Below are positions 21,981 through 26,093 of a stretch of 64,000 nucleotides of DNA, piece by piece. Source of the DNA: Micrococcales bacterium 73-13. GTDB taxonomy: Bacteria; Actinomycetota; Actinomycetes; Actinomycetales; Microbacteriaceae. Under the pieces are notes generated by a model that was not told where the DNA came from, made no database searches, and worked only from the letters and a program-made list of their open reading frames with translations. A program made the position numbers and the translations under genes. Position 1 is the first letter of the stretch. The number at the start of each line of letters is the position of its first letter. The stretch lies in the NCBI GenBank assembly GCA_001898855.1, contig MKVN01000029.1:1451-65450 (forward strand). The letters are read 5' to 3'.

Positions 21981-22129
21981 CCCGACGTTTACGTGAGGAA
22001 GTTGCGAGTCCCCCCGAACGTGGGTTAGCTTCGACTACGCCGGGACCGGACTGTTCGTCATTTCCTCGTTCGGATCCAGCGATTGCTCGACACCATCCGA
22101 CCATGGCGGGAATGACGGAAGAGACGAAC

Positions 22130-22618
22130 ATGCTGAAGAAGGCTTCGATCATCGCGGGCGCCGCGCTCGCGCTCGGCCTCGCCCTCGGAGCGCCGGCGGC
22201 GGCGATGGCGGACCCCTACGCCCCCGTTCCCGGCGAGCAGACGCAGTCGGTGGCCCCTGGCGCGACGGTGACGCTCACGACGGCCGGCTGGCTTCCGGGT
22301 GAGCTCATCACGATCACCTACCCCGACTCGTTCACGCTCGCGGCGTCGACCACGACGACGGCGAGCGGTTCCGGCACCTCCGCGGTCTCGTTCGCGACTG
22401 GCTCGTCCTCCGGGACGTTCAGCGTCGTCTTCACCGGCGCGACGAGCGGCACCGTGTCCTTCTCGGTCACGGTCGACCCCGCGCTCGCCTACACCGGCAC
22501 CCCGGACCCGACCCCGTACCTTTGGCTGGGCGGCGGCCTCGCGGTCCTCGGCGCCGCCGCGATCGTGACGGTCGTAGCGGTCCGCCGGCAGAACGCCAAG
22601 GAGTCCGCGGGCGTCTGA
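22130..22618 (+). CDS. Small LAYTG-anchored surface protein
   Basis: A 162-residue secreted protein. A signal peptide (about 1-27, ending APAAAMA) is followed by a Thr/Ser-rich beta domain (YAPVPGEQTQSVAPGATVTL) and a sortase-type tail: LAYTG at 119-123, a membrane helix (about 128-150) and RRQNAKE. LAxTG is the motif of class E sortases of high-GC Gram-positives. The start at 22130 is preferred over an ATG 27 nt upstream because GGAAGAG at 22117-22123 is correctly spaced and the signal peptide begins there. The ligand or function of the ectodomain is unknown; no sortase gene is in the window. Confidence 0.85.
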   Translation: MLKKASIIAGAALALGLALGAPAAAMADPYAPVPGEQTQSVAPGATVTLTTAGWLPGELITITYPDSFTLAASTTTTASGSGTSAVSFATGSSSGTFSVVFTGATSGTVSFSVTVDPALAYTGTPDPTPYLWLGGGLAVLGAAAIVTVVAVRRQNAKESAGV

Positions 22619-22631
22619 CCCACGATTCGAT

Positions 22632-22663
22632 CGAAGGCCCGGTCCGCCAGGATCGGGCCTTCG
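22632..22663 (+). terminator. Stem-loop terminator after the LAYTG gene
   Basis: A 10-bp perfect stem (CGAAGGCCCG paired with CGGGCCTTCG, 12-nt loop) begins 14 nt after the stop codon and is followed by a weak pyrimidine run (TCGTTTC). Confidence 0.8.
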
Positions 22664-22687
22664 TCGTTTCCGCGGCTTGTACTGGCA

Positions 22688-22703
22688 TCGAACATATGTT
22701 CGA
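22688..22703 (+). promoter_or_regulatory. Perfect actinobacterial SOS (LexA) box
   Basis: TCGAACATATGTTCGA is a perfect 16-bp palindrome matching the LexA box of actinobacteria and Gram-positives (CGAAC-N4-GTTCG). It contains a TAnnnT -10 candidate, TATGTT at 22695-22700, so LexA bound here would block the promoter directly. The radical-SAM start codon follows 8 nt after the palindrome. Confidence 0.9.
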
Positions 22704-22711
22704 ATGTCGGC

Positions 22712-23668
22712 ATGCGATGGAACGGCCAGCGACTGGGGGCGGCGGACGACGGAGCCCTGCCGGGCCTCGAGCGCGACCGCCTCGCCGGCCTCGTCCGCAC
22801 GGTCGAGACACCGGAGTTCGCCGGCATGCGCTTCCACGAGGTGCTCACCCGGACCGCCCTGAACCACGTGCCGGGCACCTCGAGCCGGATGCCGCTCGCC
22901 TGGACGATCAACCCGTATCGCGGCTGCAGCCATGCGTGCTCGTACTGCTTCGCCCGCCCCACGCACCGCTATCTCGACCTCGACATCGGCGAGGGCTTCG
23001 ACCGCGACATCGTCGTGAAGGTCAACGTCGCCGAGGTGCTGCGCCGCGAGCTCGCCCGGCCGACCTGGGCCCACGAGCACGTCTCGCTCGGCACGAACAC
23101 CGACCCGTACCAGCGCGCCGAGGGTCGGTATCGGCTGATGCCGGACATCATCGACGCGCTCGCCGACAGCGGCACGCCGTTCTCGATCCTGACGAAGGGC
23201 ACGCTGCTGCGCCGGGACCTGCCGCGGCTCGTCCGAGCCCGGGCGCAGGTCGACGTCGACGTGAGCCTCTCCATCGCCGTCTACGACGACGCGCTCGCCG
23301 CCGAGCTCGAGCCCGGGGCGCCGAGCCCCAAGGCGCGGCTGGACACCGTCCGCGCCGCCGCCGACGCCGGGTTCGCCGTCCAGGTGTTCCTGATGCCGGT
23401 GCTGCCCTACCTCACCGACACCCGGGAGCACCTCGAGCGCGCCGCCGCCTCGGCGAAGGCCGCCGGCGCCGCGAGCGCGATCTATACGGCGCTGCACCTG
23501 CGCCCCGGCGTCAAGGAGCTGTTCATGGACTGGCTCGCCCGAACCCGGCCCGAGCTCGTGCCGCGGTACCGGGTGGTCTACGAGCGCGGCGCGTACGCGC
23601 GGAAGGACTACCGCGAATGGCTCGGCGCAAAGGTCCGACCGATCCTGCGCGCGCACGGACTCGCGTAG
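22712..23668 (+). CDS. Radical SAM protein, SPL/Rv2578c-like, SOS-linked
   Basis: A 318-residue radical-SAM protein of the spore-photoproduct-lyase-like family that includes mycobacterial Rv2578c. The iron-sulfur motif is C72-x3-C76-x2-C79 in YRGCSHACSYCFARPTH; SLGTNTDPYQRAEGRYRLMP is the family signature and SILTKGTLLRRDLP follows. The reaction is unknown; DNA repair is suggested by the SOS box immediately upstream. ATG 22712 gives the family's MRW N-terminus. There is no Shine-Dalgarno, so the message is nearly leaderless. Confidence 0.92.
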   Translation: MRWNGQRLGAADDGALPGLERDRLAGLVRTVETPEFAGMRFHEVLTRTALNHVPGTSSRMPLAWTINPYRGCSHACSYCFARPTHRYLDLDIGEGFDRDIVVKVNVAEVLRRELARPTWAHEHVSLGTNTDPYQRAEGRYRLMPDIIDALADSGTPFSILTKGTLLRRDLPRLVRARAQVDVDVSLSIAVYDDALAAELEPGAPSPKARLDTVRAAADAGFAVQVFLMPVLPYLTDTREHLERAAASAKAAGAASAIYTALHLRPGVKELFMDWLARTRPELVPRYRVVYERGAYARKDYREWLGAKVRPILRAHGLA

Positions 23669-23679
23669 CGTTGGGGCCG

Positions 23680-24327
23680 ATGAGCAAGCTCTACTTCCGC
23701 TACGGCGCGATGAACTCGGGGAAGTCGACCGCGCTGCTGCAGGCCGCCTACAACTACGAGGAGCGCGGCCAGCGGGTGCTGCTCGCGAAGCCGCTCATCG
23801 ACACGAAGGGCGACCGCTCGATCGTCTCCCGCCTCGGGGTCACCCGGAAGGTCGACTTCACGCTGACCCACGACGACGACGCGCACGCCGTCTTCGAGGC
23901 GGAGCGGGTCCGGGTGCGCGCCGAGTCGGGTGCCGACGTCGCCTGCCTGCTCATCGACGAGGCCCAGTTCCTCACGACGGCCCAGGTCGACGATCTGCTG
24001 CGGATCGCGACGATCGAGGACGTGCCGGTCATCGCCTACGGCATCCGCACCGACTTCCAGACCGTCGCCTTCCCCGGCAGCCGGCGGCTGCTCGAGATCG
24101 CCCACTCGCTCGAGGAGCTGAAGACGATCTGCCGCTGCGGCCGGAAGGCCCTGTTCAACGCCCGCAAGGTCGACGGCCGGTTCGTCTTCGACGGCGACCA
24201 GGTCGCGATCGAGATCGGCGAGGTCGTCTACGAGTCGCTCTGCGCCGCCTGCTACCTGCAGGAGTCGGAGGGGCTGCTCGCCGGCGACTGGTGGCCGCGC
24301 GGCGGCTACGCGGTCGAGCCGGATTGA
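23680..24327 (+). CDS. tdk: Thymidine kinase, type II zinc-binding
   Basis: A 215-residue thymidine kinase (ATP + thymidine to TMP). Walker A is GAMNSGKST near the N-terminus; LLIDEAQF is the Walker B/catalytic block; a zinc ribbon is formed by CRCGRKA and a second cysteine pair CAAC. The lasso region near LEELKTICRCG and the C-terminal Tyr-Arg-type end are normal for the family. It starts 11 nt after the radical-SAM stop, so both may share the SOS promoter; TAGCGT at 23666-23671 could also drive a leaderless message. Confidence 0.95.
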   Translation: MSKLYFRYGAMNSGKSTALLQAAYNYEERGQRVLLAKPLIDTKGDRSIVSRLGVTRKVDFTLTHDDDAHAVFEAERVRVRAESGADVACLLIDEAQFLTTAQVDDLLRIATIEDVPVIAYGIRTDFQTVAFPGSRRLLEIAHSLEELKTICRCGRKALFNARKVDGRFVFDGDQVAIEIGEVVYESLCAACYLQESEGLLAGDWWPRGGYAVEPD

Positions 24328-24361: not shown

Positions 24362-24694
24362 ATGGGAACGATCTACTACGCGGGCACGCCGATCGAGATC
24401 GAGGACCGGGCGCTCGCGCACCTCAAGGTCGTGATCGCGACGAAGCTGCGACGCGACGAGAGCTTCACGCTCTCCTGGCAGCACCCGGACGACCAGCCCC
24501 ATGGCCGATCGACTCTCTGGCTGCACCCGTCGATCCCGCTCCGCTTCGTCTTCGACGACCCCGAGCCGGTCGAGCTCAACCGCCTCTGGCTCGAGGAGCT
24601 CTCGAACTCCGCGAACTCCTCGGGCGGCATCCAGCTGATCGCGGAGCAGGTCGGCGCCGTGACGGAGCCGACGCCTACCGTGGACGAGGGCTGA
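24362..24694 (+). CDS. Small conserved protein, DUF7882-like (paralogue 1)
   Basis: A 110-residue cytoplasmic protein of unknown function. It begins MGTIYYAGTPIEIEDRALAHL and has the core TKLRRDESF ... LWLHPSIPLRF. A second copy of identical length lies at 25712-26044 on the other strand and shares RALAHL, TKLRR, WIHPSVPI and an ending helix. Relatives are common in Microbacteriaceae, where they are sometimes mislabelled as DNA-ligase-like. TAGGTT at 24350-24355 lies 6 nt before the ATG, so the transcript is probably leaderless. Confidence 0.75.
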   Translation: MGTIYYAGTPIEIEDRALAHLKVVIATKLRRDESFTLSWQHPDDQPHGRSTLWLHPSIPLRFVFDDPEPVELNRLWLEELSNSANSSGGIQLIAEQVGAVTEPTPTVDEG

Positions 24695-25711: not shown

Positions 25712-26044
25712 TCAGGCGGTGCTCGAGGTCTCCGCCTCGTCCTCCTTCGGAGCCTTCGGCTCCGGCGGGATGATGAGCCCGGCGGGGCTGCTCGCCAGCA
25801 GGATCATCTCCTCGACCCAGGCGCGGTTCAGTCGCGGCGCCCGGCCGCCGAAGAACTGGAACTGGATCGGGACGGACGGATGGATCCAGAACGTGCGGCG
25901 GCCGTTGCCGCCGCCGGCCTCCACGTCGAACATGAAGGCCTCGTTGCGCCGCAGCTTCGTCATGACCGCGACTCGCAGATGCGCCAGCGCGCGATCGTCG
26001 AGCTCGACGGACGTGGCGGTCGCGCCATAGATGAACTTGCCCAC
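25712..26044 (-). CDS. Small conserved protein, DUF7882-like (paralogue 2)
   Basis: A 110-residue paralogue of 24362-24694, starting GKFIYGATATSVELDDRALAHL and containing TKLRRNEAFMF and FWIHPSVPIQFQFF. The C-terminus is an acidic Glu/Ala/Ser tail. GTG at 26044 was chosen over an upstream ATG because it aligns with the start of paralogue 1 and has TAGGCT at 26055-26050, 5 nt away, so the message is likely leaderless. It is transcribed divergently from the SAP-like gene. Function unknown. Confidence 0.75.
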   Translation of the reverse strand: MGKFIYGATATSVELDDRALAHLRVAVMTKLRRNEAFMFDVEAGGGNGRRTFWIHPSVPIQFQFFGGRAPRLNRAWVEEMILLASSPAGLIIPPEPKAPKEDEAETSSTA

Positions 26045-26093
26045 GTCGGAGCCTAACCACGCCCGGTTGGGAAAACACACCGAGTTCCGGAAA

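Follow-up and report, generated by a model that had tools for sequence, protein, structure and literature searches.

The core SOS regulon of Gram-positive bacteria includes a radical SAM protein, and Leifsonia xyli, which belongs to the same family as the organism studied here, and M. tuberculosis are among the species compared (PMC7739468). SplB (COG1533) is SOS-regulated in several groups, Bacteroidetes among them (PMC8565304), and SplB-like radical SAM genes have been linked to ImuB-C and SOS operons (PMC3765255). A DNA repair photolyase gene of M. tuberculosis, its locus not named, is induced by mitomycin C via RecA (PMC8151990), and the radical SAM gene vnz_31145 of S. venezuelae is induced 20-fold and bound by LexA (PMC9380542). 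Neither induction study names Rv2578c in its text; the orthology of vnz_31145 to Rv2578c is not confirmed, and the box published for it is unlike the one that Streptomyces-like genomes show in this analysis. A search for literature joining Rv2578c with LexA found none. In broad terms, a radical-SAM protein under LexA was known before, and the new part is the clamp motif described below; the available part of PMC7739468 describes no promoter geometry, leaderless start or clamp motif.

Here we analysed a radical-SAM gene in the window, by which is meant the whole stretch of 64,000 nucleotides from Micrococcales bacterium 73-13 (Table 1). The encoded protein resembles the Rv2578c family (NF038135) in full-length match, motifs and position of the LexA box. 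Nearly all other members carry a clamp-like tail of about 30 residues, whereas the window protein and that of a sister genome are without it. The PA0069 family (NF033668) shares a homologous core (220 bits), a loop of the GTNTDPYQ type, an upstream LexA operator and a clamp-like C-terminus as in the Rv2578c orthologues, but has a longer N-terminus and different operators, GTTCN7GTTC in alphaproteobacteria and CTGTN8ACAG in Aeromonas. SplB (PDB 4FHC, 4K9R) is the closest solved fold and has the radical SAM chemistry with CxxxCxxC in common with the window protein, although identity over the fold match is 16–18%, the catalytic C140 is without conserved counterpart and the window gene is no spore gene. 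ImuB and Pol II, IV and V combine LexA control with a clamp-binding peptide, as do the relatives of the window gene, but these are polymerases or polymerase-like whereas the window gene encodes a radical-SAM enzyme.

We put at roughly 70% the probability that the window gene is a single-gene SOS target in which LexA covers the −10 element, the message starts without a leader and the product, with the fold of spore photoproduct lyase, probably acts on a DNA lesion, a clamp tether being present in the wider family.

Table 1. Features of the radical-SAM locus and its neighbours, in window coordinates.
Feature	Coordinates	Strand	Basis
Strong hairpin between upstream surface-protein-like gene and radical-SAM promoter	22628..22666	+	−32.7 kcal/mol, z = −6.8
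−35-like hexamer TTGTAC	22677..22682	+	Orthologue alignment: T 88%, T 66%, G 82%, followed by A/C and C
LexA/SOS box TCGAACATATGTTCGA	22688..22703	.	Perfect palindrome; position kept in 141/166 orthologues
Predicted −10 hexamer TCGAAT, overlapping right box half	22700..22705	+	Conserved A 85%/T 99% outside palindrome; 17-nt spacer; 6 nt to start in 106/140
Rv2578c-family radical SAM protein, 318 aa; predicted leaderless	22712..23668	+	NF038135, Pfam PF04055; Shine-Dalgarno in 0/140 same-geometry orthologues
CxxxCxxC [4Fe-4S]/SAM motif (C72, C76, C79)	22925..22948	+	Only invariant cysteines in 77 aligned orthologues
GTNTDPYQ loop, common to PA0069 family	23090..23113	+	Largely invariant in alignment A1
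TAGCGT (TANNNT), candidate −10 of a separate tk promoter; tk starts 8 nt farther on	23666..23671	+	Suggested by sequence
Thymidine kinase (tk), 11 nt downstream; possible read-through partner	23680..24327	+	NF003300 260 bits, Pfam PF00265; synteny

The operator and promoter of the radical-SAM gene

A sequence-only reading of this DNA had placed a perfect SOS box ahead of the radical-SAM gene, and this was confirmed. The palindrome TCGAACATATGTTCGA, which is the actinobacterial LexA/SOS box, begins 24 nt and ends 8 nt before the ATG at 22712. It is the single match to a perfect TCGAACN4GTTCGA within the 64-kb window and one of four in the genome, which measures 2.40 Mb and is 98% complete. The remaining three are found at recA, imuA′-imuB and a DUF222/HNH-type (HNH-nuclease-like) gene, all recognised by eye from neighbouring frames without a profile scan. 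LexA is encoded in the genome (231 bits), with upstream boxes of its own at −181 and −108 that carry two mismatches.

Conservation of the box was examined across Microbacteriaceae and other Actinomycetes in 166 orthologue loci, that of the window among them. When up to three mismatches are allowed, a box starts 23–25 nt before the start codon in 141 loci, and when no more than one is allowed, in 110, compared with backgrounds of 0.003 (0.3%) and 2.2e-5 (0.002%) per equivalent window from the same positional test elsewhere in the same loci, the genomes being related to one another and the counts therefore non-independent events. This constancy of position makes LexA control of the window gene, as supposed earlier, close to certain. 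Most remaining loci have the box farther upstream, mainly at −46 to −49 and in some cases up to −84. The co-occurrence of the radical-SAM gene with ImuB is significant (70/13 versus 15/21, p = 5e-6) but weak as evidence, because both are lost in small genomes. Joint absence of the radical-SAM gene and LexA was discarded as a test, since LexA was found in 118 of 120 Microbacteriaceae and co-absence thus gives no information.

Alignment of 140 loci on the box disclosed a conserved TTG(A/C)C block 11 nt before it. Directly 3′ of the box an AT is kept (A 85%, T 99%) while the mirrored flank reaches only T 51% and A 32%, and being unmirrored the AT appears to lie outside any longer palindrome. The right end of the box together with this AT reads TC(G/T)A(A/C)T. 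This hexamer is spaced 17 nt from the TTG block, and it is separated from the start codon by 6 nt in 106 of the 140 loci, 7 nt in 26 and 5 nt in 8. In the window it takes the form TCGAAT, with C at the second position where the standard −10 has A, as in most actinobacterial promoters; this C may be a concession to the LexA half-site, and accordingly a sigma-70 promoter scan of the region upstream of the gene found no promoter. The TTG block is kept in 93 of 104 loci with GTTCGAAT boxes versus 6 of 32 with GTTCTAAT boxes, which contain the better hexamer (p = 7e-14, relatedness not corrected), and the distance to the start codon is unchanged between the two. Such a trade-off, in which the −35 block is lost where the −10 is better, supports TC(G/T)A(A/C)T as the probable −10 element.

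Other candidates for the −10 were rejected. The sequence-only reading had chosen TATGTT, which does lie within the box (22695–22700), but its second base is A in 49% and G in 44% of orthologues, and conservation favours TCGAAT instead. A −10 at GAATGT/TAATGG was discarded since its last base is seldom T (18% of the whole set, 0% of the T subset). A PafBC-type promoter (TTGTC...TANNNT), suggested by the TTGTAC upstream, was set aside because a spacing of 17 nt to TCGAAT is more in line with a normal promoter and the centre of the box is not TA-conserved.

No Shine-Dalgarno sequence was found in any of the 140 close-box loci, compared with 22 of the 26 loci outside this aligned set. The family therefore seems to employ two promoter designs, leaderless in most families and leadered in one large group, which is probably Streptomyces-like. 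For the window gene we predict a leaderless message with +1 at or next to the ATG; a nearly leaderless message had been proposed before, and of this the very short leader stands, with the difference that no leader at all is now predicted. Leaderless starts are common in actinobacteria and account for a quarter of M. tuberculosis genes (PMC3898074). In the mechanism we propose, LexA dimers on the box would cover the −10 hexamer and block RNA polymerase. Damaged DNA would activate RecA, LexA would cleave itself, and transcription would proceed from or next to the ATG, giving a leaderless message. One and the same stretch of DNA would thus bind the repressor, supply the −10 element and mark where a leaderless message begins.

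The hairpin upstream of the promoter is probably the terminator of the preceding gene; a pattern scan found no T-rich tail after it. That gene (22103–22618) encodes a small exported, Ala/Thr/Ser-rich protein of surface type with a C-terminal membrane anchor and has no Pfam match. Second LexA-like half or full boxes, possibly double operators, occur farther upstream of the radical-SAM gene in some genera (loci L042, L035, L043 and L083; for example ATTCGAACACATATTCGC before the proximal box). Elsewhere in the window genome, the DUF222/HNH-type endonuclease gene with a perfect SOS box (L003, G000:C25:37854; 13E12-like by eye) has TTGAC upstream and resembles mitomycin C-induced HNH genes of M. 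tuberculosis (PMC8151990). SOS boxes with one mismatch and AT-rich centres stand ahead of unrecognised genes at L009 (G000:C8:171866) and L006 (G000:C7:5126) and are candidates for further SOS targets.

The enzyme and the C-terminal tails of its relatives

The description of the gene as Rv2578c-like, made earlier from the letters, agrees with a full-length match to NF038135 (484 bits, cut-off 430; residues 1–317), and the match to PF04055 (57 bits) places the product in the radical SAM superfamily. Beyond the cluster no fourth cysteine is invariant or nearly so in the 77 aligned sequences. The AlphaFold model of the window protein (pLDDT 91.6) finds spore photoproduct lyase in all six of its best PDB fold matches (TM 0.63), the next unrelated ones reaching at most 0.49. 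A profile search of solved structures gave nothing significant (best E = 0.03), and a viral fold search returned only remote radical-SAM proteins. Judged by its predicted fold the window enzyme resembles spore photoproduct lyase but should not be called one, since a counterpart of C140 is not conserved.

An intein sits directly before the third cluster cysteine, C79, in 24 of 164 orthologues (L061, L056, L095, L109, L158 and others), in the arrangement ...CVY-intein(C...HN)-CFAR. The intein family is known (NF038136). Its +1 residue is a cluster ligand, and the [4Fe-4S] site cannot be completed before splicing; a redox or damage gate at this position is possible.

Almost all orthologues extend 20–60 residues further at the C-terminus, in variable sequence that closes with a short conserved peptide, most often QPTLF (39), followed by QLTLL (14), QLSLL (8), QPMLF (7), QATLF (6) and others. 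A Q-x-x-L-hydrophobic pattern is found at the C-terminus of 108 of 164 orthologues, compared with 2.3 in shuffles, and another sizeable group has xPTLF at its end but no Q. The published beta-clamp consensus is QL[S/D]LF (PMC3716654), and QLPLWG is the motif on which ImuB of the mycobacterial mutasome depends (PMC10421592). We infer from this likeness that the end peptide of the relatives is a beta-clamp-binding motif. The window protein, which ends in HGLA, and that of the sister genome, which ends in GADR, have no such tail, and the tail-less core is under purifying selection (dN 0.107, dS 0.619 between the two genomes of the genus).

The same type of C-terminus recurs in the PA0069 family, where nearly all proteins read, in a small sample taken from large plasmids of Proteobacteria, have QLSLL, QLRLL, QLSLF, QLTLF, QLTMF, QLRLF, QYSLF or QLDLF at or near the end. 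The alpha-type LexA operator GTTCN7GTTC stands upstream of the gene in 8 of 10 alphaproteobacteria, where 0.05 would be expected, and in Aeromonas the gamma-type CTGTN8ACAG takes its place. A Legionella copy has neither operator type, and Legionella is not known to encode LexA. The Firmicutes relatives read have neither the clamp-like motif nor a LexA operator. In searches of the open library no paper connected radical SAM or SplB proteins to clamp binding, which does not prove absence; the clamp-docking tail of the Rv2578c and PA0069 families appears to be undescribed so far. Individual PA0069 genes include one in Aeromonas caviae (L186) with a near-ideal CTGTATATATAAACAG operator and one in Sphingomonas (L191) that has a dnaE gene nearby on the other strand.

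A link of the gene to DNA damage, suggested earlier, is supported by these comparisons. The product would be a radical-SAM enzyme that shares its fold with spore photoproduct lyase and whose target is probably a DNA lesion. Across the family at large, a flexible tail at the C-terminus with its beta-clamp-binding peptide would bring the enzyme to sites of replication or repair. The tail is gone in the window genus, so that here the enzyme would need to reach DNA unaided. The window protein itself lacks the very trait that speaks most for activity at the replication fork. In most orthologues and the PA0069 family the tail would place the enzyme at replicating or repaired DNA and narrow the choice of substrate, and it makes the long-open assignment of the reaction testable. 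The broader proposition has about even odds in our estimate: that Rv2578c and PA0069 form an SOS-induced class of radical-SAM enzymes, recruited by the clamp to a lesion reaction unlike that of spore photoproduct lyase and kept across Actinomycetota and Proteobacteria despite changes of LexA operator, from which the window genus has dropped the tether.

Alternative readings and the thymidine kinase neighbour

A LexA-controlled radical-SAM enzyme with a substrate other than DNA, such as a tRNA, a protein or a nucleotide in the damage response, is unlikely, even though the fold match is to a catalytic core common to many radical-SAM enzymes, the hydrogen-donor cysteine of spore photoproduct lyase is not conserved and no solved relative reaches a significant sequence E-value. 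The six best fold matches are all to one DNA-lesion enzyme, the clamp-binding tails of the relatives point to DNA work, and LexA control is retained across three operator types, all of which speaks for DNA. A true spore photoproduct lyase, directly reversing spore photoproduct or a similar thymine dimer, is very unlikely here. Spore photoproduct is a lesion that arises in spores, and the Microbacteriaceae are not known to make endospores. Being the best fold match counts in its favour, as does the thymine-crosslink role assumed by the S. venezuelae authors (PMC9380542), but the sequence match is weak, and the fourth cysteine is not conserved while the solved lyase series, by the titles of its PDB entries, centres on the catalytic C140. 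The terminal motif of the relatives might also be a C-degron by which an SOS protein is quickly cleared, instead of a clamp-binding peptide, in keeping with its place at the extreme C-terminus, where 113 of 164 orthologues end in LF. Several, however, continue for 1–8 residues after the motif (QLSLFDQHPR, QQALFEPPA, QLDLFAGIV), and a spectrum that includes QLSLF, QLSLL and QDALF fits the clamp consensus (PMC3716654), so that we give the degron little credence.

The sequence-only reading had held that tk may be co-induced with the radical-SAM gene, with TATGTT as the −10 within the box; spelled out, this would be a co-induced damage operon supplying dTTP. The position of that hexamer inside the box agrees with it, as do the 11 nt to tk on the same strand in the window and the sister genome and the orientation of tk, which lies downstream on the strand of the radical-SAM gene in each of the 26 loci whose retrieved sequence contained it. 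Such an operon is nevertheless very unlikely given the poorly conserved A of TATGTT and the 530–920 nt that separate the two genes in 17 of the 26 loci. The gap holds a response regulator of the receiver/LuxR (NarL) type in all five translated (L017, L021, L022, L080 and L086, by eye), and several of these regulators have a TANNNT-N6-ATG start of their own. A conserved LexA operon was rejected on the ground that another gene stands between in most relatives with tk nearby, and the single-gene SOS target is the reading we retain.

The short distance to tk thus holds for the window but is no conserved feature. In the window and sister genome the response regulator and the 3′ end of the radical-SAM gene are both missing. 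Elsewhere in the genome the best match to the tk-adjacent regulator reaches only 36% identity, so its ortholog has probably been lost, and one may suppose that a regulator stood between the two genes ancestrally. Five other loci have tk 9–25 nt away and still retain the radical-SAM tail, which makes the absence of the regulator and the absence of the tail separable. In several relatives a TANNNT element similar to the candidate in Table 1 stands ahead of tk or of the response regulator. Co-induction of tk by read-through is possible in this genus. Beyond tk the window encodes a DUF7882 protein (24362–24694, PF25355), and about 1 kb away on the minus strand lies an ORF (25712–26080) that by sequence looks like a DUF7882 paralogue.
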